Assembly (NCBI GenBank): GCA_029563035.1
Contig: JAKQTP010000138.1
Span: 248,001-312,000 of the forward strand
From: an archaeon
GTDB taxonomy: Archaea > Iainarchaeota > Iainarchaeia > CSSED10-239
Direction of reading: 5' to 3'
Length of the DNA stretch: 64,000 nucleotides
Part shown: in pieces, positions 21,580 through 49,618 of the stretch
Position numbering within the stretch: the stretch's first letter is position 1
How the letters are laid out: each line of letters begins with the position of its first letter
Position numbers and translations under genes: made by a program
Notes under the pieces: generated by a model
What the model was told of the DNA's origin: nothing
Database searches by the model: none
Seen by the model: only the letters and a program-made list of their open reading frames with translations

Positions 21580-21612
21580 GCACTGGACATCTACCCTCCC
21601 GAAAACAACCCC
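21580..21612 (+). promoter_or_regulatory. GC-rich 33-bp upstream element, copy 1
   Basis: GCACTGGACA, one variable base, CTACCCTCCC, GAAAACAACCCC, followed 12 bp on by a TATA-like TTATAATATATT. Very conspicuous in such AT-rich DNA. It is 85 bp upstream of the antitoxin start. Two further copies occur at 22231 and 49586. After the core, TTTCTAAGG is shared with copy 2. Confidence 0.85.
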
Positions 21613-21696
21613 TGTTTCTAAGGTTATAATATATTTGCACATAAAAGATTTATTTAAAAATATAACTTGCTATAATTACTTATAGGTGATTATAGC

Positions 21697-21933
21697 ATGT
21701 CAGAATATACCACAATACAATTATCAAAATCTGTTGTAAATGATTTAAAAAAACTAAAAATGCACCCTAGACAATCATTTGATGATGTAATTTCAAATTT
21801 ATTGAAGTCTAAATCAGCAAAAGACGATTATTTCAAATTAATGATGAATGCACAAAAAATAAAAATGAGGGAAGTCTGGGACAATAAAGAAGATGAAAAA
21901 TGGGAAAAATTGAGGCCAAAGTCGGGCAAGTAG
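21697..21933 (+). CDS. Antitoxin of a MazEF-like pair (ribbon-helix-helix type)
   Basis: 78 residues. The N-terminus TTIQLSKSVVNDLKKLKMHPRQSFDDVISNLL has the strand-helix-helix form of small archaeal RHH/VapB-like antitoxins. The charged C-terminal tail is typical of a toxin-binding segment. The SD AGGTGAT precedes the ATG. The toxin gene overlaps its last 34 bp. Controlled by the first copy of the GC-rich element, by position. Confidence 0.75.
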   Translation: MSEYTTIQLSKSVVNDLKKLKMHPRQSFDDVISNLLKSKSAKDDYFKLMMNAQKIKMREVWDNKEDEKWEKLRPKSGK

Positions 21934-22223
21934 TTCTTATTGATTTTCCATTTATTGATAACACTAGTTCTAAAGTAAGACCAGCACTTGTTTTATTTTC
22001 TGAATATGGCAATATAATTCTTGCTGCAATTACAAGTAATAAAAAAGCATCAGGGATAAAATTAACTAAAGCTGATGGGTTATTGTATGATAGCACAATT
22101 AAGTTAAACGCTATTTTTACTTTGCCAAAAGAAATGGTAATTATGCATATTTGTGATTTAAATCAGGCGAAAAGAAAAGAAGTTTATTTAAAATTAGAAG
22201 AAATGATAAAAGGGTTTTTGTAA
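21900..22223 (+). CDS. MazF/PemK-family toxin (probable endoribonuclease)
   Basis: 107 residues. MazF-like fold signatures: GQVVLIDFPFID near the N-terminus, SKVRPALVL, the IILAAITSN strand, then SGIKLTKADG and a C-terminal helix. The basic KVRP stretch and the length fit MazF/PemK RNA interferases that inhibit translation. It starts inside the antitoxin gene, the usual coupling. Appears intact, unlike the MazF-like remnant at 50998. Confidence 0.78.
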   Translation: MGKIEAKVGQVVLIDFPFIDNTSSKVRPALVLFSEYGNIILAAITSNKKASGIKLTKADGLLYDSTIKLNAIFTLPKEMVIMHICDLNQAKRKEVYLKLEEMIKGFL

Positions 22224-22230
22224 CAATTTC

Positions 22231-22263
22231 GCACTGGACACCTACCCCCCCGAAAACAACCCC
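22231..22263 (+). promoter_or_regulatory. GC-rich 33-bp upstream element, copy 2
   Basis: GCACTGGACA, C, CTACCCCCCC, GAAAACAACCCC, directly after the toxin stop codon. TTTTCTAAGG and a TATA-like TTATATATTT (22278-22287) follow. It would drive the 59-codon ORF and RPA. Differs from copy 1 at very few positions over more than 40 bp. Confidence 0.85.
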
Positions 22264-22318
22264 CTTTTCTAAGGCCATTATATATTTATGCCAAATAAAT
22301 ATTTTCAAATATATAAAA

Positions 22319-22337
22319 CTCGCACCATTGATGCGAG
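22319..22337 (+). promoter_or_regulatory. Hairpin over the start of the 59-codon ORF
   Basis: CTCGCA and TGCGAG pair around a 7-nt loop, placing the ATG at 22331 at the loop/stem border. If transcription starts near 22308, as the TATA suggests, this hairpin is at the very 5' end of the RPA-operon transcript and could modulate translation. Confidence 0.45.
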
Positions 22338-22510
22338 AAATTAGTTTGGCAAAAAACCTAAAAATTATGGATAAATGTAAAACCAATGAACAAAAAGAGT
22401 TTTATTTTAAACAAACTAAAGAAAATAATAGGGCATTAGAACAAGGTAACTTTTTAATATATTGGGGTCTTAAATATATATTAGGTGAAAAATATGCAAC
22501 TAACAAGTGA
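22331..22510 (+). CDS. 59-residue leader ORF upstream of RPA, unknown
   Basis: A short open frame encoding a charged helix (Lys/Glu/Asn-rich) and then a YWGLKYILGEKY end; its last 17 bp overlap the RPA start. No family recognised and no clear SD, so it may be leaderless or start at the internal ATG at 22367. Its position between a promoter and RPA, with translational coupling to RPA, is the main reason to accept it. Confidence 0.4.
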   Translation: MREISLAKNLKIMDKCKTNEQKEFYFKQTKENNRALEQGNFLIYWGLKYILGEKYATNK

Positions 22511-23813
22511 ACAAATTTATTCTATTATTAAAACCCAAAGTGGCTTAAGCGATGAAGAGCTTAATTCCAAGCTAGAAGAGATAAAAGAAAAATATCAAGG
22601 CCTCTTAAGCGATGTTGGAGCAAACATTCTTCTCTCTAAGCAACTAGGCGTTAATCTAGACTTAAAGCAAAAGACTAGTGCTGTAACAAAAATCTCAGAA
22701 ATTACCCCAAGCATTGATTCTGTTACTCTTTATGCAAGAATAAAATCTATCCCTCCTCTTAGAACCTACAAGTCAAAAGATGGAGGACTTGGCAAGATCC
22801 AAGCAATCTATCTAGAAGATGAAACAGGAATAATTAAACTTAATCTATGGCAAGACAAGGCAGAAATTGTTAAGGAACAGGGCTTTGAAAAGAACGATCT
22901 GGTTCTGATAAAAGATGCAGCAATCAACCAATATAATGATAAGTTAGAGCTATCCTTAAGACAAGGTGGCCAAGTAATTAAAAACCCAGAAGGAACAGAT
23001 ATTAAAAAGATTAAAGAAAATGTAATTAAGATTTCAGAAATTGATTCTGCACCAGAAGGAACAGTTGATACCTATGGCAGAATCATCGCCCTTTATCCAA
23101 TAAAGACATTTACAAGAGAAGAAAGAGAAAGGTTTGTTATTAATTTTGAGATAAGCGATGGCTTAAAGACTATAAGATGTATTGCTTTTGATGCATGGGC
23201 AAAAGAGATTTCAAATAATTTAAAAAAAGGCGACCTAATAAGATTATCTGATGTTACAATCAAAGATGGCCTTTATGATCTGGAGTTATATATTAATTGG
23301 AATTCTACTGTCACAAAAGACCCAAACACTAAAATAAAGATCCCTCCATTAAGCGAGCTTGTTTCAAATGATTTTAAAGAGGAAAAGATTAGTGCTCTTC
23401 AAAACAATAACAACTACAAGATCTCTGGGGCAATAATTTCAATTAACAAGGGAAACTTAAGATCTTTCAAATGCCCAGAATGTAGAGAAAAAGTCTTTAT
23501 TATCAATAACGAGTTTATTTGCGAAGCTTGTAACAAGCCAGTAGATCCTGACATGAATATCTTTTCTTCAGTAACTCTTGATGACTCAACAGGAGTAATA
23601 AAAGTAAGTCTTTTCAACCAGCTTTTAGAAAGCGTTTATGATCTTAAAAAAGAAGATCTAAAAAAAGACCTGACACCAGAAGAGAAAGAAAAGATATTTT
23701 CTAAGGCAGAAAGTAAGCTTTTAGGTAAGAAGGCCACTGTTACAGGAAAAGCAAAGATAAATGATTTTTCAAACCAACTAGAGTTTATGGCAAGCACTTT
23801 TGAGATAGAGTAA
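22494..23813 (+). CDS. rpa: Replication protein A (single-strand DNA-binding, OB folds plus zinc finger)
   Basis: 439 residues from the ATG preceded by TAGGTG. RPA coats single-stranded DNA in replication, recombination and repair. Seen: an N-terminal helical region, an OB fold at about 70-160 (VTLYARIKSIPPLRTYKSKDG, then GIIKLNLW), a second OB fold at about 180-275, and a third region holding a C4 zinc finger (CPEC and CEAC, near 322-345) as in archaeal RPA41 proteins. The next gene starts 3 bp later. Transcription is probably from the GC-rich-element promoter upstream. Confidence 0.88.
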   Translation: MQLTSEQIYSIIKTQSGLSDEELNSKLEEIKEKYQGLLSDVGANILLSKQLGVNLDLKQKTSAVTKISEITPSIDSVTLYARIKSIPPLRTYKSKDGGLGKIQAIYLEDETGIIKLNLWQDKAEIVKEQGFEKNDLVLIKDAAINQYNDKLELSLRQGGQVIKNPEGTDIKKIKENVIKISEIDSAPEGTVDTYGRIIALYPIKTFTREERERFVINFEISDGLKTIRCIAFDAWAKEISNNLKKGDLIRLSDVTIKDGLYDLELYINWNSTVTKDPNTKIKIPPLSELVSNDFKEEKISALQNNNNYKISGAIISINKGNLRSFKCPECREKVFIINNEFICEACNKPVDPDMNIFSSVTLDDSTGVIKVSLFNQLLESVYDLKKEDLKKDLTPEEKEKIFSKAESKLLGKKATVTGKAKINDFSNQLEFMASTFEIE

Positions 23814-23816
23814 GAT

Positions 23817-24797
23817 ATGAAAACAGAATTAATTTACGATTCTTCATTACCATTTAGGGTATCACCACAAACAATCAACATAATTGAAAAAAACAACAAA
23901 AGAACAATTATTTTCTACAACGAAGAACAACAAAAATTAGCAAAAAAATCAATAGTTTTCTTAGAAGATTTTTTTGATTTCTATCATTCTTCTAGAATAG
24001 ATAGATCAAAAATAAAAATTTTTGGAAAAAAGTTCAATATCAGAGGATTTTTTGATATTCCTTTATTAAAATATTTAAGTCAATGTCCACACCCTGAAAA
24101 AAAAGAAATCGTGTCTTCTTTAGTCAGGCTTTCTGACAAATATTCTAATATTGAACTAGCAAATAAGTTTTCTGTCTTTTTAATAAACTTAAAAAAATTA
24201 AGCAAATCTTATGCAAGTGACAAACTACACAGGTCTGTAATACCCACATTAAAATCATTACACACTAATACAATTCCAAGAGAACCCCACATAATAGAAT
24301 TTAATAAAAAATGTAATGAAACCTATGATGGTTTTGTAAGAGCAATAAGATCAGGTACAATAACAACAGCAAAAGTCACTATGCCCGATGGAACAGTAAG
24401 AAGAATGTTTTTTAAGTCTCAGGTTGGCTCACCAGAAAATAATATATTAACAAAACGAGAAAATAAAGAACTAAGATCACAAAAGATGAATTTAGGAAAA
24501 GGGTATCTAGAATTGGCAATTGACCCAATAACTTTAGAAATTTATGCAATAAAAACCAAAAACGGAATTCATTTTGGAACACCAGCAGAAATAGAAAAAC
24601 CTTTTTGGATGTCAAAAGATAAAGAGCGGTTTTTGAAAAAACTTGTAAAAACAGAACTAGAAAGACACTTAGATGAGGTTTATGCTAAAAGAAAATTAAT
24701 AAAAGGGAAAAAAACAAAGGGAAAAGTCAAGGTCGTTGTTCCTGGAATAAAAAGAATGAAAGAAACATACAGAAGAATGTCTTCTAAGCCCAGATGA
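23817..24797 (+). CDS. Unknown protein in an operon with RPA
   Basis: 326 residues, not recognised. The N-terminal third is mixed alpha/beta with a helical FLEDFFDFYHSSRIDRSK stretch. Residues about 100-145 look like a helical bundle. About 170-240 is a beta-rich part (TAKVTMPDGTVRRMFF, YLELAIDPITLEIYAIKT). The C-terminus is strongly basic (RKLIKGKKTKGK... RRMSSKPR), suggesting nucleic-acid binding. It follows RPA by 3 bp, so a role with RPA is plausible but inferred only from position. Confidence 0.6.
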   Translation: MKTELIYDSSLPFRVSPQTINIIEKNNKRTIIFYNEEQQKLAKKSIVFLEDFFDFYHSSRIDRSKIKIFGKKFNIRGFFDIPLLKYLSQCPHPEKKEIVSSLVRLSDKYSNIELANKFSVFLINLKKLSKSYASDKLHRSVIPTLKSLHTNTIPREPHIIEFNKKCNETYDGFVRAIRSGTITTAKVTMPDGTVRRMFFKSQVGSPENNILTKRENKELRSQKMNLGKGYLELAIDPITLEIYAIKTKNGIHFGTPAEIEKPFWMSKDKERFLKKLVKTELERHLDEVYAKRKLIKGKKTKGKVKVVVPGIKRMKETYRRMSSKPR

Positions 24798-24860
24798 TTT
24801 TATGTTTCCCCCTCACTTCCTGTATTGTTTTTGTGGGTTTTTATGCAAAATGGCGGGTAT

Positions 24861-24890
24861 TTCCTAACTAGGCAGGCATATAACGAATTT
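24861..24890 (+). promoter_or_regulatory. Shared promoter element, diverged copy before mcm
   Basis: TTCCTAACTAGGCAGG (24861-24876) followed by CATATAACG in the TATA position (24877-24885). It aligns with TTCCTAACTCGGCAGG plus TTTATAAAG before secreted protein 1 (6599-6623). The start codon of mcm is 35 bp downstream of the TATA. Confidence 0.6.
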
Positions 24891-24892
24891 GA

Positions 24893-24909
24893 CCTAATAT
24901 AATATTAGG
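24893..24909 (+). promoter_or_regulatory. Perfect 17-bp palindrome at the mcm start
   Basis: CCTAATATAATATTAGG, two 8-bp arms around one A, ends 10 bp before the ATG. Its right arm runs into AGGGGA, the likely SD. It could be an operator covering the transcription start, or, if transcribed, an RNA hairpin hiding the SD. Confidence 0.6.
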
Positions 24910-24919
24910 GGATTAATTT

Positions 24920-27049
24920 ATGACAGAGTTTGATTTTGAAGAAGAATTTGACGAAAGCCAAAATGGCAAAACAAACTTGGCTCTAGATGAATATATATCG
25001 ATATTTACTGATTTTTTAGAAGCAGTCTATAAAAAAGAAATAGAAATTTTAGCATCAAACTATCCTGAAAAAAAAAGCCTAGACATTGATTATAAAAAAC
25101 TAGAAGCCTATGATCTTAATATCTCAGAAAGATTGATAGAAAACCCAAACATAATAATTGAAGCAGCAACAGTTGCTCTAAGAAGAATAGATGTTGGAAT
25201 TCTTGAGCAAACAGATCAAAAGTTTGAGCCACACATAAGGTTCTTTAATCTCCCTGAAGAATACAGAGTAGATATTAGAGATATCGGCTCTAAGCACCTT
25301 ACTTGTTTGGTGTCTGCAGAAGGCATGATAAGACAGATTACTGAAAGGCTACAAAAAATGACAGACGCCCATTTCATTTGTAGAAAATGTCAAAATTCTT
25401 ATAACATTAAACAAACATCTCAAACTCTAACAAAACCAGTAGTGTGTGACTGCAAATCTAGAGAGTTTGATTTAGACCTTGAACAAAGCAAATTTATAGA
25501 TTACCAAAAGCTTGAAATTCAAGAACCTATAGAAAACTTAAAAGGCAGTGAACAAGCAAATCATGTTGAGGTTTTTATTTCTGATGATCTTGTAAATTCT
25601 TGTTCTGCTGGTGACAAGGTAATTGTAACAGGCGTTGTAAAACTAAAGCCACAGAAAGATTCAAACATGTTTAATAAGTACATGATAGCAAACCACCTAG
25701 AAAAAGTAGATCAGGAATTTGAAGAGCTTGACATTACTCCTGATGAGATTGAAGAGATTAAACAGCTTGCCAAAAAAGAGGATATCTATGAGTTACTTGC
25801 TCAATCAATTGCCCCAAAGATCTATGGTCACGATATTGTTAAACAAGCAATTACTCTCCAGATGTTTGGTGGTGTAAAAAAGAAAGTTCAAAAACAGGAC
25901 TTTAGAGGCAACATCCATATTCTTCTAGTCGGTGACCCATCTACAGGTAAGTCCGAACTTTTAAGAAACGCAGCAACTATTGCCCCAAAGTCAATATTTG
26001 TCTCTGGAAAAAGTGCATCTGGTGCAGGTCTGACAGTTTCTGCTGTTAAAGATGACTTTGGCGAAGGTGGTTGGACTCTAAAAGCCGGTGCTGTTGTTTT
26101 AGCTTCTGGCGGAATAGCAATGATTGATGAGTTTGACAAGATGGATAATGAAGACAGAAGCACTCTTCACGAAGCTATGGCCCAAGCAACAGTTTCTGTT
26201 TCCAAAGCAGGACTATATGCTAAGTTTAGAGCAGATACTTCTATTCTTGCAGCAGCAAACCCAAAGTTCAATAGATTTGATAAGTTCAAGAATCCAATAG
26301 AGCAGATAGATTTGCCATTTTCTCTTCTTTCAAGATTTGATTTGTATTTTATTATTAGAGATGTTCTAAACAGAACTCTTGACATAGAGCTTGGAAGACA
26401 CATAATAGATGTTCAAGAGGCTGCTCAAAAACTTTCTGAACCAAACACCGAACTAACAAAGGAAGAAATGGAAAAAATCCAAGACACAGTTCTTCCAAAA
26501 ATAGATTCTAATATTTTCAAGAAATATGTAGCATATGCTCGTCAGTATATTAGACCAAAGTTAAGTAAAGAGGCTTCAGAAAAGATTCTAAACTACTATA
26601 TTGACTTGAGAGACCTAGGCAGAAAATCAGAAAGCTTTGCAGCAACCCCAAGACAGCTTGAGGGTCTTATAAGGTTATCAGAGGCAAGTGCAAAGGTTCG
26701 TTTAAAATCAACAATAGAGCTTGAAGATGCACAAAGAGCAATAAATATCTTTAAGATTTCTCTTGAGCAAACAGCAGTAGATATGGAAACAGGAAAGATT
26801 GATATAGACATTATAACAACAGGCACCTCAACAAGCGAAAGGCAATTTATAAAAAGGGTTCTAAACATAATTAAAGATATGACTGTAGATGGCAAAGCAG
26901 TAACAATAGCAGAAATCTCAGAGACTATGGAAAAACAAAACATAAGCAGAGATAAGTTAATGGACGCCATCTTAAAATTAAAGAAATCAGGAGAGCTTTA
27001 TGAGCCAAAATCTGGCCTGATTAAGCCAGTTGAACAACAGCCAATGTGA
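24920..27049 (+). CDS. mcm: MCM replicative DNA helicase
   Basis: 709 residues. Hexameric 3'-5' helicase of archaeal replication forks. Seen: the N-terminal domain with a zinc site (CRKC and CDC near 151-180), the OB-fold beta hairpin region, then the AAA+ core with Walker A GDPSTGKSELLR, the helix-2 insert, Walker B AMIDEFDKM, sensor 1 AAANPKF, and the arginine finger LSRFDLYF. A winged-helix C-terminal domain (about 630-705) follows. Complete and typical; no intein. Preceded by the shared promoter element and a palindrome. Confidence 0.97.
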   Translation: MTEFDFEEEFDESQNGKTNLALDEYISIFTDFLEAVYKKEIEILASNYPEKKSLDIDYKKLEAYDLNISERLIENPNIIIEAATVALRRIDVGILEQTDQKFEPHIRFFNLPEEYRVDIRDIGSKHLTCLVSAEGMIRQITERLQKMTDAHFICRKCQNSYNIKQTSQTLTKPVVCDCKSREFDLDLEQSKFIDYQKLEIQEPIENLKGSEQANHVEVFISDDLVNSCSAGDKVIVTGVVKLKPQKDSNMFNKYMIANHLEKVDQEFEELDITPDEIEEIKQLAKKEDIYELLAQSIAPKIYGHDIVKQAITLQMFGGVKKKVQKQDFRGNIHILLVGDPSTGKSELLRNAATIAPKSIFVSGKSASGAGLTVSAVKDDFGEGGWTLKAGAVVLASGGIAMIDEFDKMDNEDRSTLHEAMAQATVSVSKAGLYAKFRADTSILAAANPKFNRFDKFKNPIEQIDLPFSLLSRFDLYFIIRDVLNRTLDIELGRHIIDVQEAAQKLSEPNTELTKEEMEKIQDTVLPKIDSNIFKKYVAYARQYIRPKLSKEASEKILNYYIDLRDLGRKSESFAATPRQLEGLIRLSEASAKVRLKSTIELEDAQRAINIFKISLEQTAVDMETGKIDIDIITTGTSTSERQFIKRVLNIIKDMTVDGKAVTIAEISETMEKQNISRDKLMDAILKLKKSGELYEPKSGLIKPVEQQPM

Positions 27050-27056
27050 TAAAAAA

Positions 27057-27905
27057 ATGTACAGTGCTTTAAAGGATAGAAAATTTTTACTTTCGTTTTT
27101 GTTTTTGTTTTTTCTAGTTCAAGTGATTGCGATTTTTGTGACTATCAGTTATCTTCCTCAAGACCTGCAATTAACACTTGTTGATAAAGATCCAAATAGT
27201 GTTTGGAATGCTTTTTTTATTGTCGGCTACATAATTTTATTTTCTGTAATCATTATTGTTTTAAGAAAAATATTCAAAAGGCAAAATTACCTGGTAGTGA
27301 TTGAGGCTTTAGCTTTGTTTGGTGGAGTGTCTTTGATCTTTTCAATGTTTTTGCCTACAATTCTTGCATATCTAGCAACTATGGTTTTGTTATTAATAAA
27401 ATATTCCTTTAAAAAAGAAACAATTTACACAAAATGGTATAACAACATTATCTTGGCAATGGCTATTGCTGGTGCTGGTGCAATTATTGGCATAAGCCTA
27501 GGCATTATCCCTGTAATTGTTTTGTTAATACTTCTTGCAATCTATGATATTGTCGCTGTGTTTTTTACAAAGCACATGATTACTCTTGCAGACATGATTA
27601 TTAAGAAAAAAATATCATTGTTGTTTTTGATTCCAACAAAAAAAAGAGAATATAAGCTTGGTGGCGGAGATCTTGTTGTCCCTGCCCTTGTTTCTTCTAG
27701 TCTTTTGGCTTTATTAATTAAGAAATATTCATTATTACAAATATTAATTCCAATTTCTGGAATCTGGATTGCTTCAATTGTTGGGTTGTTTTTGACCTTC
27801 TATATCTTAGACAAATACAAGGCAAAAATAAAGGCACTTCCTGCTCTGCCAATACAGGTTGCACTGATGCTAGTAGTGATTGTTATAACATTAGTTTGTC
27901 TTTAG
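27057..27905 (+). CDS. Presenilin-type intramembrane aspartyl protease
   Basis: 282 residues with about nine hydrophobic segments. All three hallmarks of the presenilin/signal peptide peptidase class are present: YD (Y163-D164) in one helix, GxGD (G202-D205) in the next, and PAL (262-264) near the C-terminus. The ATG seven bases after the mcm stop is preferred over an upstream in-frame TTG. Such enzymes cut transmembrane segments such as remnant signal peptides, which fits a genome rich in surface proteins. Its end overlaps the convergent gene by 15 bp. Confidence 0.88.
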   Translation: MYSALKDRKFLLSFLFLFFLVQVIAIFVTISYLPQDLQLTLVDKDPNSVWNAFFIVGYIILFSVIIIVLRKIFKRQNYLVVIEALALFGGVSLIFSMFLPTILAYLATMVLLLIKYSFKKETIYTKWYNNIILAMAIAGAGAIIGISLGIIPVIVLLILLAIYDIVAVFFTKHMITLADMIIKKKISLLFLIPTKKREYKLGGGDLVVPALVSSSLLALLIKKYSLLQILIPISGIWIASIVGLFLTFYILDKYKAKIKALPALPIQVALMLVVIVITLVCL

Positions 27906-28289
27906 AAACTCACAATTAGTGCTAACTTCTACAAACCTTTTGTTTATTCCTGAGAGATAGGACTCACATTGGTTTTCTTTAAGATCATCTACATATTTGT
28001 TTCTTGGAGTGCTTACAGAATCACAAACCCAGCCAGGAGCAATAGATTCAGAAAGGCAAGGCCCTGTAGATGGCAAGTCATTTTTAACAAGCCTTTCATT
28101 ACAAAGAGCAACACAATCCTCAATTGCTTGTGTCTTGTATTTGTCTGTTTTGTTTAAGCTAGAAACAAAACTTAATGCTACAAATCCAATAATAAGGCAA
28201 ATAACAATTACATAAACATAGATAGTAACTTTTCCTGGCTTAAACAAATCCGAACTTAAATGTTTATCTGATTTTTTCTTTTTAGCCAT
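27891..28289 (-). CDS. Single-pass membrane protein with extracytoplasmic cysteines
   Basis: 132 residues: a Lys-rich cytoplasmic start, one helix at about 21-43, then an outer domain with five cysteines (CVALC, GPC, WVC, QC and C near the end), suggesting disulfides. I recognise no family. Convergent with the presenilin-type gene. Confidence 0.6.
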   Translation of the reverse strand: MAKKKKSDKHLSSDLFKPGKVTIYVYVIVICLIIGFVALSFVSSLNKTDKYKTQAIEDCVALCNERLVKNDLPSTGPCLSESIAPGWVCDSVSTPRNKYVDDLKENQCESYLSGINKRFVEVSTNCEFLKTN

Positions 28290-28372
28290 TTTATCAAACC
28301 ACTATATAATTATGAGAACTAAATACTTTAAAAGTTAATCGTTAGTAAATATAGTATTAAATTTGAGCATAT

Positions 28373-29374
28373 ATGTTAGAAAACTCTGGATTTAACGAAT
28401 TTACAAAAACATTTAAGCAGAATATCTCTGGAAGCAAGTTATTAGCCATTGGTGCAAAGAAGATTGGGGTAATTGTTCAAGAAGACAAATATTACAAGCA
28501 CAAAAAAACGAACGAAACCCTAAGAGTTAGAAAAGAAAAAAATACAGACACTATTATTTACAGCCACCGGCATATCCTAGGTAAAGAAGAATTTGTACAT
28601 TCTCAAAAAATAACTGGAAAGATTCTAGATAAAAAAGTAAAAGATCTAAACCAAAACTATATTGAAGAGCTTCAAATTAATAAGAGAAGAAGCATCTATG
28701 TTTACCATTCTGTAATTATCAATATTGATGATGTTGAAGGTTTAGGCAAATTTATTGGGTTTGTAATTTTGGACAAGTCAAAATTAAGAGAAATGAATGC
28801 CTTAATCTCTAAATTAAAGATTACATCAAAACCAATAAAGCAAACTTACTTTGATATGCTACTTAAAAAACAAAAGCCAATAGATCGTTTGTTCACTAAG
28901 CTTTATGATGTTTTTGGCAAGTTTGCATTTGGCATATCTTCTGGAGTATTAACAACACTTGGTGTGATGGTAGGGTTAATGGGCGCTACTGCTTCAAGGC
29001 TAGCTGTGATTGGCGGTATCTTAAGTATTGCTATAGCAGATTCTTTATCTGATTCTTTAGGTGTTTATTCTTTAAAGATTTCAGAAAGAGGAACAACAAA
29101 AAAACAAGCACTTAAATCTGCAATCAATGTTTTTATTGGCAAGTTGATTTTTGCCTTGTCCTTTATATTTCCGTTTTTATTGTTTTCTTTAAGTTCTGCA
29201 ATAATTGTTAGTATTATTTGGGGCTTATTATTAATTATTTTTTTAAATCTATTAATAGCTATTGCCCAAAACGAAAATATTCTAAAAACAATTATTAAAA
29301 ATACGATTATTGCTTTTGCTGTTTTAGTTGTATCATACGCTTTAGGTTTATTAATTAATTTATTATTTAACTAG
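28373..29374 (+). CDS. CYTH domain fused to VIT1/CCC1-like membrane domain
   Basis: 333 residues. Residues about 20-170 resemble class IV adenylate cyclase/CYTH proteins: QEDKYY then TLRVRKE, an IIYSHRH strand, INIDDVEGLGKFIGF, and a closing TYFDMLLKK like the family's SYxDLL. Residues about 180-331 form a membrane domain with ISSGVLTTLGVMVGLMGA and SLSDSLGVYSLKISE, as in VIT1/CCC1 iron/manganese transporters. The ExExK catalytic strand of CYTH enzymes is not evident and the glutamates after the GLG motif are replaced, so the CYTH part may bind a ligand rather than catalyse. Function is inferred: a transporter gated by a phosphorylated ligand. Confidence 0.7.
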   Translation: MLENSGFNEFTKTFKQNISGSKLLAIGAKKIGVIVQEDKYYKHKKTNETLRVRKEKNTDTIIYSHRHILGKEEFVHSQKITGKILDKKVKDLNQNYIEELQINKRRSIYVYHSVIINIDDVEGLGKFIGFVILDKSKLREMNALISKLKITSKPIKQTYFDMLLKKQKPIDRLFTKLYDVFGKFAFGISSGVLTTLGVMVGLMGATASRLAVIGGILSIAIADSLSDSLGVYSLKISERGTTKKQALKSAINVFIGKLIFALSFIFPFLLFSLSSAIIVSIIWGLLLIIFLNLLIAIAQNENILKTIIKNTIIAFAVLVVSYALGLLINLLFN

Positions 29375-29417
29375 CTCAAAAATAGCTTTATAAAAGCATT
29401 TATGCAATATTATATAT

Positions 29418-29873: not shown

Positions 29874-29887
29874 ATTGGAGTTAAACA

Positions 29888-30178: not shown

Positions 30179-30191
30179 AAAAAGAGAATTT

Positions 30192-30542: not shown

Positions 30543-30546
30543 AGAA

Positions 30547-31050: not shown

Positions 31051-31077
31051 TTTTTCTTTTTTTAATTTAGATTCAAT

Positions 31078-32356: not shown

Positions 32357-32428
32357 TTTTGTTATATTTCGACTATTGTTTTAAAATAAAAGAAAACATA
32401 TATATACTACTTTTGATATAAATTATAT

Positions 32429-32737
32429 ATGAAATGCAAATCATATAACTTCTTTTCTGTTCTTAGCAACGAACTGCGCTGGAAAATTGTTAAATCCCTT
32501 TACAAAAAAGAAATGACTGTTTCTCAAATATGCCAAGCTCTTGAAGAAGAGCAATCAAAGGTTAGCCACAGCTTACGGGCACTTCTTGATTGTAACTTTG
32601 TGTTTTCTAAAAGGCAAGGCAAAAATATTATCTATTCCTTAAATAGAAAAACAATAAGGCCACTTATAAAAATTGTAAATATACACGCTAAGGACTATTG
32701 TAAAACAAAATGTTGTAAAAAAGAGGCAAAGAAATGA
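32429..32737 (+). CDS. ArsR-family regulator with a cysteine tail, Isc operon leader
   Basis: 102 residues. A winged helix of ArsR type (FSVLSNELRWKIVKSLYKKEMTVSQICQAL, then the recognition helix QSKVSHSLRALLD and the wing). A C-terminal cluster CKTKCC lies at residues about 93-98. It overlaps the cysteine desulfurase start by 4 bp, so it probably regulates its own operon, and the cysteines could hold a metal or Fe-S cluster, a functional analogue of IscR. That role is inference. Confidence 0.8.
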   Translation: MKCKSYNFFSVLSNELRWKIVKSLYKKEMTVSQICQALEEEQSKVSHSLRALLDCNFVFSKRQGKNIIYSLNRKTIRPLIKIVNIHAKDYCKTKCCKKEAKK

Positions 32738-38415: not shown

Positions 38416-38418
38416 AAT

Positions 38419-40518: not shown

Positions 40519-40616
40519 TTTGAATTCTCCTTTTATTAAAATTAGACTAATATAATTATAGAAACAAACAGATTATAAAAATAAGCTTTATAAAATCTTT
40601 TATCTTTGGTTTATTC

Positions 40617-41831: not shown

Positions 41832-41846
41832 CCTCTTAAATTAAAT

Positions 41847-42098: not shown

Positions 42099-42120
42099 TT
42101 TCTTTTCCTCCTATTTAAAA

Positions 42121-43281
42121 TTATAAGAAAATTTCATTTTCTATCTTTTCTGGCAAATATTTTTTAGCAACGAAGTCAAGAGACTTGTTTGCAAGAGCCT
42201 GTTGTTCTATTCTGATTTTTTTATCAATCGCAAGTTTTAATTCAGCTTGCCATTTTGCTGATTTGAACCAATCATAGTTCATTAGTTCCTTTGCTCTTTT
42301 GACATCTCCTTCTTTCATTTTTTCAGTAACATTTTGTAAGCCATATGTTTCAACATCTGTTAGGGTCATTCCAACATACTTGGCATCAGGAACCGCCAGA
42401 TATTTAGAATGTGCAGCTAATGCCATTGATCCGCTTTTGATAACAGAATAGATGTACCAACCATAAGGATCTCCATCTGTAAAGACAATGACTGGGAGAT
42501 CATATTCATATCTTAATCTGTGAATTAATCTTCTTGCTCCTCTTGCACCTTGACCACCAGTTCCAACTAATATTGCATTGTGCTTAGGTGCATATTTTTC
42601 TTCTATCAGTCTATTGTACATTGCTGCTGTTTCAATAACTAAAACAAAATCAGCATTAATATCAACAATCTCTATCTCTTCAGGCTCAATTCTGGACATT
42701 ATGCTCCAGCCACCTCTGCCAAGAGAATTACAATTGAAAACATCATTGTCGTGTTTTAGATCCTTAAGAGTAATATCGCCATAAAGAGAACCTTTCGCTT
42801 CAGCATGCAATCCTAATTTTTCTCTAATGGTATTAGCAGCATGCTCAACATCAACAATAACTTCATTAGACTCGCTTTGTGATTCAAAGGTGTTTTCTTT
42901 GGTGTTAGCTACTGTTCGTTTTAGTTCATAATAGATTTCTCTGATTGATGCTGTCTTTCCTTCTTTTAAATATTCATTACATTTATCATTAACAAGCATT
43001 GTCTGCATGAACTTTCTTGCAGCCCCAAGATTTAGAAAAGGCCTGATTGTTTTTTTGTCTCCAAGCTGTATGTATTGCTTGTCTTCATCAAAATAAACAT
43101 TGCTAAGCCCTCTTACCTTTGTTGTAAAGGTTGGGTGTCTATTGCTTTTTATCTGATCAACAATGTCTTTTGCTATCTGATAGGTTTTTCTTTCTACTTC
43201 CTTTGTAGTTTCAGTCTCATATTTATCAAGCCTTTTATGTTGACGTTTTTTTACTAATGTTGTTTCTTTTTTTTTTGCCAT
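42121..43281 (-). CDS. top6A: DNA topoisomerase VI, subunit A
   Basis: 386 residues from MAKKKET (a GTG nine bases upstream is an alternative). Spo11-like cleaving subunit of a type IIB topoisomerase. Seen: the catalytic tyrosine in SIREIYYELKR, and the Toprim domain with FVLVIETAAMYNRL and VFTDGDPYGWYIY. The gene is encoded 11 bp after subunit B. Confidence 0.95.
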   Translation of the reverse strand: MAKKKETTLVKKRQHKRLDKYETETTKEVERKTYQIAKDIVDQIKSNRHPTFTTKVRGLSNVYFDEDKQYIQLGDKKTIRPFLNLGAARKFMQTMLVNDKCNEYLKEGKTASIREIYYELKRTVANTKENTFESQSESNEVIVDVEHAANTIREKLGLHAEAKGSLYGDITLKDLKHDNDVFNCNSLGRGGWSIMSRIEPEEIEIVDINADFVLVIETAAMYNRLIEEKYAPKHNAILVGTGGQGARGARRLIHRLRYEYDLPVIVFTDGDPYGWYIYSVIKSGSMALAAHSKYLAVPDAKYVGMTLTDVETYGLQNVTEKMKEGDVKRAKELMNYDWFKSAKWQAELKLAIDKKIRIEQQALANKSLDFVAKKYLPEKIENEIFL

Positions 43282-43292
43282 AATTATCACAT

Positions 43293-44993
43293 TTATTCTT
43301 CATACTCGTCGTCTATTATTTCTTCCTCTTCAGCTATCTCATCATCAGCAATCTTTATTCCTTCTTCTTCCATCTTAAGCTTTTCAAGAACCATGTTATT
43401 TAGGTTTTTCAATAATAAATCTCTGTCCTTTTCGCCAGTCGTATGCACAATCGCATCAACAACATATGGTGCATATTTTGCAAACACCTTTTTCTTTTCT
43501 TTTTTTTCCTCTTCTCTTTTCTTGTCAATAATATATGTTCCAACTTTACGAGCAACTTCCATTAATGCAAGTTTAATTTCATTAACAATGTCTGGGTCAT
43601 CAGAAACTGCAGACTTTCCTGCAGAAGTGTAAGGTATATGAACAGATATTAGATTAACAAAAATAGTAATTGGACTAGTGTCAAAATTGCTAATACCATA
43701 CCTTTTCCAATCAATAGATTCTGCTGTTTTTGTGATAGCACAACCACCAGCATCAAAAAGTAATGGTGCCTTGTTAGCGTATCTTATAATTTCAGAAGAT
43801 CTTACTTCTTCAATTCTTGTTTGTTTTTTATCAACTATTTTTTCAACAGAAACAAGCCTTCCTGCTTTTCCGCCATATGCTACTGCTGCTTCTATTTGGA
43901 AAGCGTAACCTCCTTGATAGACTGTTGGCTTTCTAGTAACCACTGAAAGGAACTCAGGCTCAACAATTGATTTTAAAGATTTCTTAATTTGCTCTTCGCC
44001 AATTGGAACAAGATTATCAGTGCTTGGTGCAATAAACTTAGTTTGCTTTATTGCCTTTACTAAGTCCTCTGCTTCCTCCCAACTTAATGCCCTAGGATCT
44101 TTATTCAAATCAAAATGCACAAGCTTTTGAACATTATCAACAGAAGTTTGACCAAACCTGTCAAAAGTTGTCATTAAAAAAGAATTTACTTTTCTTGAAC
44201 CAGTAGAATGTCTAGCATAGGTCAGCATCTCATCAACAGTAACGCCGATAGGGTGTGGCTTGACTGCTTTTGGGATACTTGGAAGTTTATTTACTGTTCT
44301 TGTATAGGTTGTTTTCTCACCTAATGGATCTTGAAAACTTATTGTTAGATGAGGGTTGGCAATCGCTGTTCTTCTTAGATATTCATCAACACTTGATTGT
44401 CCTTTTTTATAGATAATATCTTTAAACTTACATTTAACAGCTAAACCTCTGTATTTGTTATCTAGATAATGTTTGTTTGCAACCTTAGGAGTATTAGTTT
44501 TACTATCTATTAACATCTCCATAGAAACTGTTTTTCCTTTATTTGTTCCAGAAATCAATTTTGTTGGTTTTCCTGTTGTCATCTGTGACAAAAGAATAAT
44601 ACCACTAACACCAATTCCCTGCTGGCCTCTTGTTTGGACTAGCCTATGAAACTTTGTTCCTGCAAGTAATTTTCCCATAGCACTTGCTAGTTTATCTTCT
44701 GGTATTCCTGGGCCATTATCAATTACAGAAATTTCATAATATTCTGTGCCAAGCTCAGAAATGGATACCTCAATCTCTGGCAAAATGCCTGCTTCTTCAC
44801 ATGCATCAAGAGAATTGGTCACAAGCTCGTGTACAATGGTAGTCATTGACCTTTGCTTGCCGGAAAGGCCTAGCATCTGCTTGTTTTTCTTAAAGAAATC
44901 TGCTACAGAATGTTCTTTAAACTCAGTAAACAGCTGTTCTGCCTCTACTTCTTTTCTTTGTGTTTCTTTTTTGTCTTGTGCTTTTTCAGCCAT
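43293..44993 (-). CDS. top6B: DNA topoisomerase VI, subunit B
   Basis: 566 residues. ATPase subunit with a GHKL fold: VTNSLDACEEAG (N box), DNGPGIPEDKL, and GQQGIGVSG (G2 box). The H2TH-like and transducer domains follow, and an acidic tail closes the protein. With subunit A it relaxes supercoils and decatenates. Confidence 0.95.
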   Translation of the reverse strand: MAEKAQDKKETQRKEVEAEQLFTEFKEHSVADFFKKNKQMLGLSGKQRSMTTIVHELVTNSLDACEEAGILPEIEVSISELGTEYYEISVIDNGPGIPEDKLASAMGKLLAGTKFHRLVQTRGQQGIGVSGIILLSQMTTGKPTKLISGTNKGKTVSMEMLIDSKTNTPKVANKHYLDNKYRGLAVKCKFKDIIYKKGQSSVDEYLRRTAIANPHLTISFQDPLGEKTTYTRTVNKLPSIPKAVKPHPIGVTVDEMLTYARHSTGSRKVNSFLMTTFDRFGQTSVDNVQKLVHFDLNKDPRALSWEEAEDLVKAIKQTKFIAPSTDNLVPIGEEQIKKSLKSIVEPEFLSVVTRKPTVYQGGYAFQIEAAVAYGGKAGRLVSVEKIVDKKQTRIEEVRSSEIIRYANKAPLLFDAGGCAITKTAESIDWKRYGISNFDTSPITIFVNLISVHIPYTSAGKSAVSDDPDIVNEIKLALMEVARKVGTYIIDKKREEEKKEKKKVFAKYAPYVVDAIVHTTGEKDRDLLLKNLNNMVLEKLKMEEEGIKIADDEIAEEEEIIDDEYEE

Positions 44994-45133
44994 AAATATT
45001 TCACATTTTAAACAATTAGATTAAATTATTAGTCATATATATATATATAATATATAATATTTTATAAATATATTGTAGTTAGAAACTAAATATTTAAATC
45101 CTTTTTGTTTTTTTTCTTGGTCCTGTAGATATC

Positions 45134-46315
45134 TTAGTAAATCAAACTTTTTGCTTTCTCTATATCTCCATTTTCCAAAAGTTCATAAAGTCTTTTGTAA
45201 TCAAAATCTTTGGAGATCTTGGTTTGCTCAATCTGCTCAGAAAAGATTTCTTTTGCAAGTTCCTGTACATTTTTGTTCTCTGTTTGTAGCTTTTTAAGTT
45301 GCTCTATGCTTTCCTTTAGCTTTTTTTCAGAAATGTCGTTCTTTAAAGAAATATAAAAATAATCAGAATATTCTTTTTTTAAAGAATTGATATCAAGGTT
45401 TTTCAAGAGCTCGCCATCTTCAAGCTCACCTTTTAGTCTAATCCTTACTAATGCTTTTTTCTCAGGAGTTTTTTCTAACTTCTCAAGCTCTTCTTTTGCC
45501 TTTGAAATAATTTCTGTTGCCGTTGTTTTTTTTGTAAACTTAATATCAAGATAATAAGTTTTTCGTACACCTTCAATCTCAAAAAACTCAAATTCCTTGG
45601 TGTTTGTATCAAGAACAAAATAACCTTTTGGCTTTTCAGTTTCTTTTTTCTTTATTTGTGTTGTTACTGTTGAACCAGGTAGTAGGAATTTGGAGCCTTG
45701 AGGAAGATCAACAATGCTTGACCAATGAAGATGTCCATTAACAATCAAATCAAAATCTGATGGAAGATCAGAAAGAGAAATAGTTGCAATCATCTCATCT
45801 TCAAATGGCAAATACTCAACAATTGATTGATGCATCATCAAGATATTATAATAACCAGAAATCGCCTTTGGATTGAACTTTTCAAGAAGATAATCTTTGG
45901 CATATTTTTCAGGAACGCCTGTCATTCCAAAGATCGCTACTTTTTCCTTTTCAAATTTCAAGCAATCTGCTTTTAGTAATTTTAAAAAACCAAGAGACTC
46001 TAAAATTTCAACAGTTGTTATATAGTCTTTTGAACGATATTCGTGGTTACCGATTATTGCGATGATTGGAAGATTGCTTGAAAGTTCAGTAAAGTTGTTT
46101 TTTAGATTTAAATCTTTAAGAATAGAAATTGCTTCAAACAGCACCTCGTGGCTAGGAACAGAAACATCAAAAAGATCTCCGGGAACTAGTAACAAATCAA
46201 TTTCTTGTTTTTCAAGTTGCTTGAATGCTGTTAAGAGATTTGTAAAACAATCTTTTCCTAGCTCATTATCAAAATTAACACCTAGATGCCAATCACTAAT
46301 TATCCCAATTCTCAT
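45134..46315 (-). CDS. mre11: Mre11-like DNA repair nuclease
   Basis: 393 residues. Calcineurin-like phosphoesterase motifs: SDWHLG, VPGDLFD, IGNHEYR, HQSI and NGHLHW, in Mre11 order. The capping domain continues to about 320, followed by a charged coiled region. The usual operon partner Rad50, HerA or NurA is not adjacent, so the gene has left the archaeal repair cluster or the partner is elsewhere. Confidence 0.88.
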   Translation of the reverse strand: MRIGIISDWHLGVNFDNELGKDCFTNLLTAFKQLEKQEIDLLLVPGDLFDVSVPSHEVLFEAISILKDLNLKNNFTELSSNLPIIAIIGNHEYRSKDYITTVEILESLGFLKLLKADCLKFEKEKVAIFGMTGVPEKYAKDYLLEKFNPKAISGYYNILMMHQSIVEYLPFEDEMIATISLSDLPSDFDLIVNGHLHWSSIVDLPQGSKFLLPGSTVTTQIKKKETEKPKGYFVLDTNTKEFEFFEIEGVRKTYYLDIKFTKKTTATEIISKAKEELEKLEKTPEKKALVRIRLKGELEDGELLKNLDINSLKKEYSDYFYISLKNDISEKKLKESIEQLKKLQTENKNVQELAKEIFSEQIEQTKISKDFDYKRLYELLENGDIEKAKSLIY

Positions 46316-46394
46316 AAATAAATAATAAACAGAAATTGTTAATAATTGTTTCCTTTAAAAAGATATTCCTTCTTAAATATATAACAAATAATGT

Positions 46395-46465
46395 GCCTTG
46401 GTGGCAGACCGGTCATGCATTCGCCTGCAGAGCGAAAGAACAGAGTTCGACTCTCTGCCAAGGCT
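46395..46465 (+). tRNA. tRNA-Cys (GCA)
   Basis: 71 nt. Acceptor GCCTTGG pairs with CCAAGGC; D arm GCA/TGC; anticodon stem TTCGC/GCGAA with loop CTGCAGA, anticodon GCA; T arm CAGAG/CTCTG with loop TTCGACT; discriminator T. No intron; no encoded CCA. Its last base touches the stop of the convergent gene. Confidence 0.95.
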
Positions 46466-46866
46466 TATTTTTTATATTTCCTAAGAATATTATCTGCATA
46501 ATTATATGCTTGTTTTAAAGACAAAATTTCTTTTGCTAAATTAGCGCAGTATTTTTCTCTACCTATTGCTTTATATTCTGCGATATCAAAATGTTCTATT
46601 TCTCTAAATATCTTTTCAGGACTTGTGTTGTTTTTGATTTCTATAAGTATGCGTTCTAATTTTCTTCTTTTCTTAGCAAAAGAAGAATAACAAAATTTTA
46701 ATTTTGCAAATTGGGCACTTGTTGTTTTGGCACTTGAAAATAATGTGTTTACTGTTCTTATGTGTGGATTACTAGTGTTTTCTTTTAATTGAACTCTTGG
46801 TTTTGTTTTAAATTTACTAATTTTTGGTTTTGGTCTTAGTGTTATTACTTTTCTTGGCATATGCAT
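46465..46866 (-). CDS. Small basic protein, unknown
   Basis: 133 residues. Basic leader with RPKPK and KTKPR stretches (to about residue 30), then a helical body (FAKKRRKLERILIEIKN..., LAKEILSLKQAYNYADNIL). No known family. Its RPKPK leader resembles that of the protein at 30192. It starts 3 bp downstream of the PEP-synthase-like gene. Confidence 0.58.
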   Translation of the reverse strand: MHMPRKVITLRPKPKISKFKTKPRVQLKENTSNPHIRTVNTLFSSAKTTSAQFAKLKFCYSSFAKKRRKLERILIEIKNNTSPEKIFREIEHFDIAEYKAIGREKYCANLAKEILSLKQAYNYADNILRKYKK

Positions 46867-46869
46867 CTT

Positions 46870-48651
46870 TTATATATCTTTAATATCCTTTAGGACTTTT
46901 TTTATTTTTTCTTTTGCAACCATGCTAACTGAGCCAGGATATTCTGTTTTTAGTTTTTTTATGTCGTCAGCTCCAAACAACAAATTTATTGGAATTACTA
47001 TTTGCTTGACTTTTTCAATCTCAATATGATTTAAATCTTTAATATTTAGGTTTCCTTGCGCATCTATATATTTAGATGTTGCTTTTTCTGCAACCTTTGG
47101 TTTTTCAACAACTGGCTCGTTAAAAATAATGTGGTTTGGTGCTGCTTGTTTTTTAGGTGCTTTTTTATTAGTGATTACTGCCCCTTTATTTCTAAGTTCT
47201 CTTTGTTCTTCCCAAAGCTGTTTTGTTCTTTGTTCTTTTTCATCTAAAAAAGAATCTTCTTCTGGATGAATATCTACAACATCAAGAGAAGCAATTGCAT
47301 AAATTTCTCCAGTCTGTGCATTCATTTGTATCTTCTCGCCATCAAGAAGCTGTTCTGTTGCAAATCTAGTTCCAACAATACAAGGCTTATCTAAATCTTT
47401 AGCAATCACTGCTGCGTGGCACAGAGAACTTCCTGCATTAGTAATAATGCCTCTTGCAATTTTCATAGCACCTAGCATTTCTTGATCAGTCATTGCAGTA
47501 ACAAGTATTGATTCATGTGTGATTTTTTCAAGATCATTATAATTGATTATTGTTACGACTATTCCATTAACAACTCCCCCATTTATCCCAACCCCTTTCA
47601 TTAGTAATTGGTTTTTAAAAGAACTAATTTTTTGTTGAGGGTTTCTTTTGGTTTTTTCTACAGTGTTTGGGTTAACTGCTTCAGAAGAAATAATATAGAC
47701 ATCTGCTTTATCCATTGCCCATTCTATAATCTGTGGAGTTCCAAAATATTCTTCTATTTTCATTGCAGTATTTGTTAGGTCTTTTAGAATATGGGTATTT
47801 ACTTTTTGTTTCTCTCTTTCTGATTCTAGAACTGCATCTTTTACTGTTCGCCCCTTTATTCTTTTTAGTTCCCAATCTTGTTTAGAAACCGTTTTGCTAA
47901 TTGTTTGGTATGGCTTTTTTTGGGTTTCATAATGGTCAGGAGTTATTTCTTTAATAACATGAGAACCTCCAAAGCCATATACTGCTTCAATAATAACAGT
48001 GTTAGGATCCATCGCACTTTTGCTTGAGATTATAATTCCCGAGTATTTGGCAGCAATCATGTTTTGAATAATTACCCCTATACCAAGCCTTTCAACATTT
48101 ATTCCTTTTTTGTGTGCGTATTCCAGCACATCTGGGCTGTAAAGTGTTGCCCAGGTTTCTTTTAGACAATTTACAAGTTCTGCCTTTCCTTTAATATTTA
48201 ATGAGCCCCCTTCCTCTTCTATAAATTTTGTGTCGCACACTTCTCCATCATCACAAACAACAGAACATCTAACTGCTACAAAAGCATCTGCACTGCTAGG
48301 TAACCAGCCACCACCAACATCTCCAAGTTTGCCATAATATTTGTATAATTCGATTTCTGCTTCTTGATTTAATTTCCCTTTTAATATTATTTGTTTTATT
48401 TCTTCTGATTTATTTTCTATATCTTGTCTATCATTATAGTTTATGCTTCTTAGTATTTCTATAATCTTTGATTTAAGATTATTAGTTTGAATAAAATTAA
48501 AGAATTCGGTTGCAGTAACAACAAAACCTCTTGGTACTGAAATGCCACTAGAAGCTAACTGTGCAAGCCTTGCTGCTTTTCTTCCAATTGTTCTAGAATC
48601 TGTAGAACCAAGTTCTTTTAACCATCGTATGTTTTCATAGTCCATAGCCAT
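46870..48651 (-). CDS. PEP-synthase-like protein lacking the TIM-barrel domain
   Basis: 593 residues. Residues about 10-340 match the PEP/pyruvate dikinase ATP-grasp domain (GRKAARLAQLASSGISVPRGFVVT; VAVRCSVVCDDGE with R128; GVIIQNMIAAKYSGIIIS; EAVYGFGG). Residues about 360-455 are the swivelling phosphohistidine domain with AGSSLCHAAVIAKDL (H412) and PCIVGT. The C-terminal PEP-utilising TIM barrel, needed for normal PEP synthase, is absent, replaced by about 120 residues of linker and a small unknown domain. Not PEP synthase as such; phosphorylation of another substrate, as in rifampicin phosphotransferase, is conceivable. Confidence 0.75.
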   Translation of the reverse strand: MAMDYENIRWLKELGSTDSRTIGRKAARLAQLASSGISVPRGFVVTATEFFNFIQTNNLKSKIIEILRSINYNDRQDIENKSEEIKQIILKGKLNQEAEIELYKYYGKLGDVGGGWLPSSADAFVAVRCSVVCDDGEVCDTKFIEEEGGSLNIKGKAELVNCLKETWATLYSPDVLEYAHKKGINVERLGIGVIIQNMIAAKYSGIIISSKSAMDPNTVIIEAVYGFGGSHVIKEITPDHYETQKKPYQTISKTVSKQDWELKRIKGRTVKDAVLESEREKQKVNTHILKDLTNTAMKIEEYFGTPQIIEWAMDKADVYIISSEAVNPNTVEKTKRNPQQKISSFKNQLLMKGVGINGGVVNGIVVTIINYNDLEKITHESILVTAMTDQEMLGAMKIARGIITNAGSSLCHAAVIAKDLDKPCIVGTRFATEQLLDGEKIQMNAQTGEIYAIASLDVVDIHPEEDSFLDEKEQRTKQLWEEQRELRNKGAVITNKKAPKKQAAPNHIIFNEPVVEKPKVAEKATSKYIDAQGNLNIKDLNHIEIEKVKQIVIPINLLFGADDIKKLKTEYPGSVSMVAKEKIKKVLKDIKDI

Positions 48652-48771
48652 AAATCTTCACATATTTTTATTTTTTATTTTACTTCCCATTAATATATTA
48701 TATATTCTTTTTAAAGCCTTTTTGGTTAAGAAAACCAAAATATTTAAAAGCAGCAAATAATTTATGTGATA

Positions 48772-49491
48772 TTAGCCTTTTTTTGGATAAATAACACAAA
48801 GGGTTTCTTCTATAGTTGATGAAATTGTTGTTAAATTAACCCCATTTTTTTGAAGTGCTCTCTCTAGTCCTGTTTTACCATTGCCTGAACAAATTGCACA
48901 CATTATTACTTTTTTATTGGTTGTGCCAGTGTATTTTAATGAATAATTACTAGCATAAAAGTTAAGGATATCATCAGGGTTAGCAAAAATAACTTGCTCA
49001 TAATTTAGTCTTGTATTTCTGGTAAGTTCTTCTGCAGAGATTTGTGATACCTTTTTAGTAAATGTAACTGGATCAGTACAGCTTTCTGCTCCTGGATTGT
49101 TTATTTGGTCAGATAATAGTTGCTTAGTTGAAATTATTGGAGATAAACTCCTGCCATCTAAATTAGCAAAATTTCCAATAATTAATATAATTAATAAAAT
49201 AATAGTTGCAGCAGAGCCAATAACCATTTTTATAGTAAATTTAGTATAATAATCTGTTTTTAATTTTTTAATAAATAAAGATAATATATCAAGTATTGCG
49301 GACAAAACAATATATGCGCTAGAAAAACCAAATATTCCTGCAATTAACAACAAAAGAAAGAGATTCATTCTTCCTCCTATTGGAGCAAACAGGATACTTA
49401 AAATTGCTGCAATAATTACCCCTGCAAAAGATAAAATAAGCCATGTTTTATTTTGTGTATCGTATTCTTCTTGAGATTTTTCTTGTATCAT
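48772..49491 (-). CDS. Membrane protein with extracytoplasmic domain, unknown
   Basis: 239 residues. Three hydrophobic helices at about 17-40, 43-76 and 86-108, then an outer C-terminal domain of about 130 residues with cysteines (C137, CAIC near 196-199 and one near the end). No family recognised. Divergent from radA across a 195-bp region. Confidence 0.6.
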   Translation of the reverse strand: MIQEKSQEEYDTQNKTWLILSFAGVIIAAILSILFAPIGGRMNLFLLLLIAGIFGFSSAYIVLSAILDILSLFIKKLKTDYYTKFTIKMVIGSAATIILLIILIIGNFANLDGRSLSPIISTKQLLSDQINNPGAESCTDPVTFTKKVSQISAEELTRNTRLNYEQVIFANPDDILNFYASNYSLKYTGTTNKKVIMCAICSGNGKTGLERALQKNGVNLTTISSTIEETLCVIYPKKG

Positions 49492-49585
49492 TTAATATCA
49501 CCAAATTAAATAAAAAAGAAGCAGTAACCTTTTTTAAAGAGATTTTTATTATTAGGTAAAAAAATATGCAACATTTATAAACTTT

Positions 49586-49618
49586 GCACTGGACAGCTAC
49601 CCCCCCGAAAATAACCCC
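49586..49618 (+). promoter_or_regulatory. GC-rich 33-bp upstream element, copy 3 (radA)
   Basis: GCACTGGACA, G, CTACCCCCCC, GAAAATAACCCC, then a TATA-like TATAATTAT (49636-49644) 18 bp on and an AGGTG SD before radA. The core matches copies 1 and 2 at all but two or three positions, but the sequence after the core is not conserved. Confidence 0.85.

Follow-up and report, generated by a model that had tools for sequence, protein, structure and literature searches.

How might an archaeon bring the genes for coating single-stranded DNA and for using it under a common control, and could a toxin gene be drawn into the same circuit? The question is raised by a guanine–cytosine (GC)-rich element of 33 bp that stands upstream of a toxin–antitoxin gene pair, of the operon of the single-strand-binding protein RPA and of radA in a stretch of 64,000 nucleotides from an archaeon of the Iainarchaeota (assembly GCA_029563035.1, contig JAKQTP010000138.1, positions 248,001 to 312,000 of the forward strand; hereafter, the window). 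An initial annotation, made from the letters of the sequence, had read the element as the binding site of an activator or repressor of a DNA-damage or replication-stress regulon that also switches a toxin. Our analyses favor a narrower interpretation: the element is probably a regulator site of the activator type, located upstream of the core promoter and serving the RPA operon and radA, while its reach to other replication genes and to the toxin is far less certain.

Copies, position and constraint

The pattern GCACTGGACANCTACCCYCCCGAAAAYAACCCC, 33 bp in length, has exactly three exact matches in the window, all on the plus strand: copy 1 (21580–21612), an exact match to the consensus, lies 5′ of toxin–antitoxin pair 1; copy 2 (22231–22263), also matching the consensus, lies 5′ of ORF59 and RPA, with the toxin stop codon 7 bp before it; and copy 3 (49586–49618), again a consensus match, lies 5′ of radA. 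The copies vary only at positions 11, 18 and 27. When up to three mismatches were allowed, the pattern found no further site in the window and none in 100 dinucleotide shuffles; the runner-up in the window is 13 mismatches away, and even the left ten bases of the element, at up to two mismatches, occur in no gap of the window except those of the three copies. The copies have a GC content of 58, 64 and 61%, compared with 24% for the gaps and 32% for the window overall. The initial annotation had described three near-identical plus-strand copies at 21580, 22231 and 49586 and a GC-rich element within AT-rich DNA, and on both points the pattern scan and the base composition bear it out.

All three copies are intergenic, on the sense side of a gene and near a TATA-like word. 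In a gene table chosen by hand from the list of open reading frames (ORFs), consisting of 71 genes (69 ORFs and two tRNAs), 5356 of the 64,000 bases are intergenic, and 4638 of the 128,000 strand-specific positions (3.6%) fall in a gap no more than 200 bp ahead of a gene on the same strand; these positions include all three copies. With copies 1 and 2 taken as a single event, our arithmetic gives a probability of about 0.036 squared, or 0.0013, for such a placement by chance. On the plus strand, TATA-like words begin 11 bp after copy 1 (TTATAATA, 21624–21631), 14 bp after copy 2 (TTATATAT, 22278–22285) and 17 or 22 bp after copy 3 (within the stretch TATAATTATAAGT, 49636–49648), close to the 12–18 bp claimed earlier if not exactly within it, and further words begin 40 bp past copy 1 and 42 bp past copy 3. 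The functional role of these words is putative: those after copies 1 and 2 stand in an AT-rich context, AT-rich gaps abound in TATA-like words, and a promoter model learned from 30 upstream gaps recovered no TATA motif, only T-rich tracts. Such tracts (TTTTTCTTTT) dominate the 30 gaps and are possibly terminators of the preceding genes.

The history of the copies was assessed by comparing, pair by pair and with Fisher's test, identity within the element with identity in the next 60 bp downstream. Copies 1 and 2 agree at 31/33 positions of the element and 38/60 downstream (p = 0.001), copies 1 and 3 at 30/33 and 31/60 (p = 1e-4), and copies 2 and 3 at 31/33 and 26/60 (p = 6e-7). Because 30 or 31 of the 33 positions are identical in the element, against 26 to 38 of 60 behind it, the element looks constrained, its sequence having been retained while the flanks decayed.

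A predicted activator site

Folded as a single strand, the element reaches 0 kcal/mol in five of the six strands and −0.3 in one, and an Rfam scan of the window at the gathering score returned the two tRNAs only and no family for the element. A structured RNA or DNA hairpin was rejected on these grounds, and since the element barely folds and has no Rfam family, its recognition as a duplex is likely. Its reverse strand contains CCAGTG and G-runs, but a G-quadruplex usually takes four runs and each copy has two or three on that strand.

We predict a double-stranded DNA binding site directly upstream of the core promoter. As judged from the TATA-like words, the element would occupy roughly −45 to −78 relative to the transcription start, a placement that leans most on copy 2, because the DNA ahead of that copy is the coding sequence of the toxin. 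In archaea, a site at such an upstream position fits an activator or an activator-like complex better than a repressor covering the TATA box. Given that the element is long, asymmetric, probably read as a duplex and upstream of the putative core promoter, a site of the activator type is the best reading, and the two independent loci that carry it in the window are those of RPA and radA. One regulator would then couple the RPA operon and radA, that is, the supplies needed both to coat single-stranded DNA and to use it, presumably by activation. As to the signal, our tentative first guess is replication stress or DNA damage, plausible enough to consider but not one we would rely on.

The proposal of a shared regulator site is supported in its central part, a long, constrained, promoter-proximal and sense-oriented element 5′ of RPA and radA; a broad membership is more doubtful. 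The element was not found in the upstream region of top6B in the window, and mcm, although it adjoins the RPA operon, carries a different box, CTAGGCAGGCATATAACG, which resembles CTCGGCAGGTTTATAAAG 5′ of three paralogues; both genes speak against a broad replication regulon. This second box, CTCGGCAGG-TTTATAAAG, is GC-rich and abuts a TATA-like word; it stands 5′ of three paralogous ORFs (6606–6623, 7662–7679 and 8663–8680, with 0, 0 and 2 mismatches) and of mcm (24868–24885, 4 mismatches). Its occurrence at the paralogues and mcm suggests that the organism may use GC-rich boxes beside TATA-like words.

A promoter duplicated around a toxin–antitoxin pair

Copies 1 and 2 lie within a 92-bp direct repeat, 78% identical and 651 bp apart, that flanks toxin pair 1. 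A direct-repeat search places its first copy, comprising the element and the TATA region, at 21574–21665 and its second at 22225–22316, both on the plus strand. The repeat had been missed in the initial annotation, as had the pair with a truncated toxin behind radA and the distinct box of mcm. Since copies 1 and 2 belong to one duplicated promoter repeat, the toxin has the same promoter as RPA. The simplest history is that the pair ended up enclosed by two promoter copies, although the direction of the duplication is something that we only infer.

The pair itself consists of an antitoxin (21697–21933, plus strand), matching the VapB-type family PF02697 (E = 7e-07), and a toxin (21900–22223, plus strand), matching the PemK/MazF family PF02452 (E = 1.7e-11). 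The pair, labeled MazEF-like earlier, is therefore VapB/PemK-like rather than strictly MazEF. A 9-bp inverted repeat, TGCTATAAT/ATTATAGCA (21668–21697, plus strand), touches the start codon of the antitoxin and is a possible antitoxin operator; the RNA fold of the pair 1 leader has a z of −2.05, in keeping with such an operator, its hairpin lying outside the element. Copies 2 and 3 are followed by inverted repeats that at best have arms of 8 and 5 bp, respectively, and differ from it in sequence. In the mechanism that we propose, the pair under the duplicate promoter would receive the same input as the RPA operon and would have, in addition, the operator-like palindrome at the start of its antitoxin.

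The toxin appears to be far less common than its neighbor. A word-based protein search, which may miss distant toxins, yielded 13 candidates, of which four are homologues; one of these four covers half of the toxin, and the closest, 99% identical, carries the name of a Candidatus Diapherotrites archaeon. For RPA, 7996 candidates were scored and 67 are homologues, 12 of these being full length and at least 80% identical, and the difference between four and 67 homologues suggests that pair 1 may be accessory. Among plasmids, one of 72,556 records matched the toxin, a Methanohalobium PemK/MazF (40%). Behind radA lies a second pair, identified by profile searches, with an AbrB/MazE-type antitoxin (50784–51026, plus strand) and a truncated PemK-type toxin of 76 amino acids (50998–51228, plus strand) that covers positions 1–50 of the 109 in the profile. 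The two PemK-type toxins of the window are identical in 20 of 52 aligned columns; by eye, both antitoxins have a similar tail with two Trp, while their DNA-binding parts differ. A second PemK toxin behind radA makes the association of such toxins with RPA and radA curious, and two cases cannot establish it.

One of the toxin homologues may preserve a trace of the element. This protein (P0070), 76% identical to the pair 1 toxin, extends past the end of the latter with DINSTGHPL. Read on past its stop codon, the frame of the pair 1 toxin gives QFRTGHLPP, in which TGH is encoded by ACT GGA CAC of copy 2, at an offset of four codons that matches P0070. From codon counts, the probability of TGH at that place by chance is about 1.4e-4, an arithmetic made after the fact. 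It seems that, behind the toxin of a relative, the left part of the element has been retained, unlike the right.

These features bear on the most far-reaching proposal, a dedicated SOS-like regulon of a DPANN archaeon in which an activator with an unusually long site of 33 bp would jointly raise RPA and RadA upon the build-up of single-stranded DNA and would also drive the PemK-type toxin pair through the duplicated promoter. The toxin's place in such a switch rests on copy 1, itself half of a repeat shared with RPA, and the proposal as a whole is doubtful in our judgment.

Points against a shared site and alternative explanations

Several observations weigh against a regulator site shared by RPA and radA. 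The count of copies covers the 64-kb window alone, and as halves of one repeat, copies 1 and 2 are not independent. TATA-like words directly precede the element at copy 1 (TTTTTTAAAT) and at copy 3 (TTTATAAAC, 49574–49582, a rival to the stretch behind that copy), and the element could be transcribed there; no TATA-like word was found by eye in the toxin coding sequence upstream of copy 2. The 19-base core of the element has a single match in a contig collection of 84,980 species, where by our arithmetic, about 1.9 are expected by chance, and that match lies in a planctomycete gene, within a frame that by eye reads GLLDIYPPENK and that we take to be DprA-like. Within this collection, from which close relatives may be absent, the exact core is therefore not widespread; the element pattern at three mismatches was found in 0 of 60 genomes around the chance match, a scan that serves as a background control only. 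The tail of P0070 ceases to fit the element beyond some 12 bases; a single protein tail from four homologues, it was noticed post hoc. Finally, the second box has weak support of its own: a shorter pattern of it has five sites at two mismatches where 1.67 are expected, and five or more occur in 4 of 100 shuffles; the fifth of these sites, at 61969, is intragenic.

Viral sequences provided no further copies. Pattern scans of viral contigs gave 0, 3 and 1 matches; the four sites, on four contigs of 37–54% GC and none with the whole element, are taken as chance. No relative came up when such contigs were searched with RPA, RadA or the toxin alignment.

The alternative that survives best is a general promoter element, the site of a constitutive factor or of one assisting TFB and TBP, which would mark well-expressed genes and involve no stress logic. 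Both the position of the element directly ahead of TATA-like words and the presence of another GC-rich box abutting such a word at the three paralogues and mcm are in its favor. Yet the gaps upstream of the proteasome gene (57219) and of both tRNA genes, at 15–16% GC, are without the element, and a constant 33 bp is long for a part of the core promoter; the upstream region of EF-1A lies outside the window, which makes that gene uninformative here. We consider this explanation unlikely.

More improbable still is a small repeated or mobile sequence, or a recombination scar, left in three gaps, with the toxin pair inserted between direct repeats. The 92-bp repeats do flank the pair, the toxin is rare, with four homologues found, and the flanks of copy 3 weakly resemble those of the other copies. 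Against this, the element is nearly fold-free, the three copies all precede genes in sense orientation, and the flanks of copies 1 and 2 have diverged while the element has not. Nor did any plasmid record cover 80% of the repeat around copy 1, or any phage record 80% of that around copy 2; these searches, run up to an E of 10, gave weak partial matches in 69 and 130 records, respectively, and among the matches listed (eight plasmid and eight phage), the alignments start at base 42 of the repeat or later, behind the element.

An origin recognition box, or another Orc1/Cdc6 site through which a replication initiator protein would control these genes, has very little chance of being the answer. 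RPA, MCM and two copies of the element cluster, and a Sulfolobus Orc1 paralogue regulates damage genes, according to the excerpts available of PMC9738581. Origin recognition boxes, as described in the accessible part of PMC4164010, resemble the element in being asymmetric sites with a CCAGTG-like part and G-runs, the latter two seen here on the reverse strand. The element copies do not form inverted pairs, however, and the candidate was rejected by four expressions for the box from that same part of PMC4164010, the best element scores being 10–12 of 20 against 14–15 elsewhere in the window. A coding or transcribed leader element is barely credible: the frame GCA CTG GAC, reading ALD-x-YPPENNP in all copies, is open through the element in all three with two of the three variable bases silent, and TATA-like words also precede copies 1 and 3, but in no copy does an in-frame ATG, GTG or TTG separate the element from the last stop before it, the frame stops two codons past copies 1 and 2, there is no Rfam match, and RNA folding from copies 2 and 3 is unremarkable (z of −0.23 and 0.64).

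Relation to known systems

Returning to a regulator site for RPA and radA, its target genes have counterparts with a documented response. In Halobacterium, radA1 increases about 7-fold after ultraviolet (UV) irradiation and the rfa3-rfa8-ral operon about 1.5-fold (PMC1224876), with rfa3 requiring higher doses or short-wave UV for its induction (PMC2556686), as reported in the excerpts available of these papers. Because the Halobacterium orthologues of both gene sets are UV-induced, RPA and RadA would make a coherent pair of targets. In the same excerpts, no SOS-like response is reported in Halobacterium, and a LexA-regulated SOS system is described as lacking in archaea (PMC1224876).

The closest parallel is an 11-bp motif, TTTCACTTTCA, that in the part of PMC2556686 available to us stands ahead of the TATA box at the Halobacterium UV-B genes radA1, top6B, vng17 and vng280, with rfa3 excluded. 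Like our element, it is a common motif 5′ of the TATA at radA and other genes, and its authors regard it as a likely regulator site; unlike it, our element is 33 bp long, has another sequence and is found at RPA, not at top6B. The UV-B motif was rejected as an explanation, with no match at up to two mismatches on either strand of the RPA and radA regions and one two-mismatch word near the toxin pair. The damage promoters of Sulfolobus contain ANTTTC, to which Orc1-2 binds (PMC9738581; also PMC6934391, both in excerpt); this too is an archaeal promoter element, there of a damage regulon with a known regulator, but of 6 bp, not 33. As a shared motif, ANTTTC was likewise rejected: it occurs twice in the RPA region, once in the radA region, on the minus strand, and not at all at the toxin pair. 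The bacterial SOS box would likewise tie together recA-like, SSB-like and toxin genes. It is a short palindrome and the site of a repressor, LexA, unlike the element, which is long, non-palindromic and upstream of TATA-like words.

The kind of site that we propose is, then, already known in archaea, and its sequence and host group are new to the literature searched, in the part of the search results that was covered. There, no archaeal or DPANN radA promoter motif matched this element or host group, and the papers listed for strings of 13–15 bases from the element all concern animals or human disease, as judged from the search listings.

Genes around the element

Of the genes initially listed as served by the element beside the toxin pair, namely ORF59, RPA, a protein without assignment and radA, two are confirmed by profile matches, RPA and radA. 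ORF59 (22331–22510, plus strand) is small and overlaps the start of RPA. In one word-based protein search, made with its sequence extended by 36 residues through the element, the only candidate was ORF59 of the window itself; it could represent an orphan gene or else an upstream ORF, possibly controlling RPA translation. A hairpin, CTCGCA-TGCGAG, spans its start codon. RPA (22494–23813, plus strand) combines an OB fold with Rep_fac-A_C and is directly followed by a family-less protein of 326 amino acids (23817–24797, plus strand), for which Pfam, NCBIfam and PHROGs gave no match and PDB gave one, at E = 0.89, that we take as chance. RadA (49687–50715, plus strand) scores 468.6 bits with TIGR02236, above the cut-off of 361.15.

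As conceivable regulators, the window encodes an ArsR-type helix-turn-helix protein (32429–32737) and the AbrB-type antitoxin behind radA. Elsewhere, it contains a 252-bp tandem duplication, 90% identical (15950–16453), inside a protein of 1056 amino acids with matches to OmpL47-type and adhesin repeats.

Implications

The coordination of recombination genes in archaea, which lack LexA, is little known outside Sulfolobus and the haloarchaea, and for DPANN archaea the search results covered had nothing on it. As the site is 33 bp long and near-constant, its regulator should be easy to pull down and its regulon easy to list from a genome. The duplicated promoter around the toxin pair provides a clear case of a toxin and a repair gene under the same promoter. 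If the doubtful proposal of an SOS-like regulon were true, the organism would have the supply of repair proteins and the arrest of growth on a single switch.

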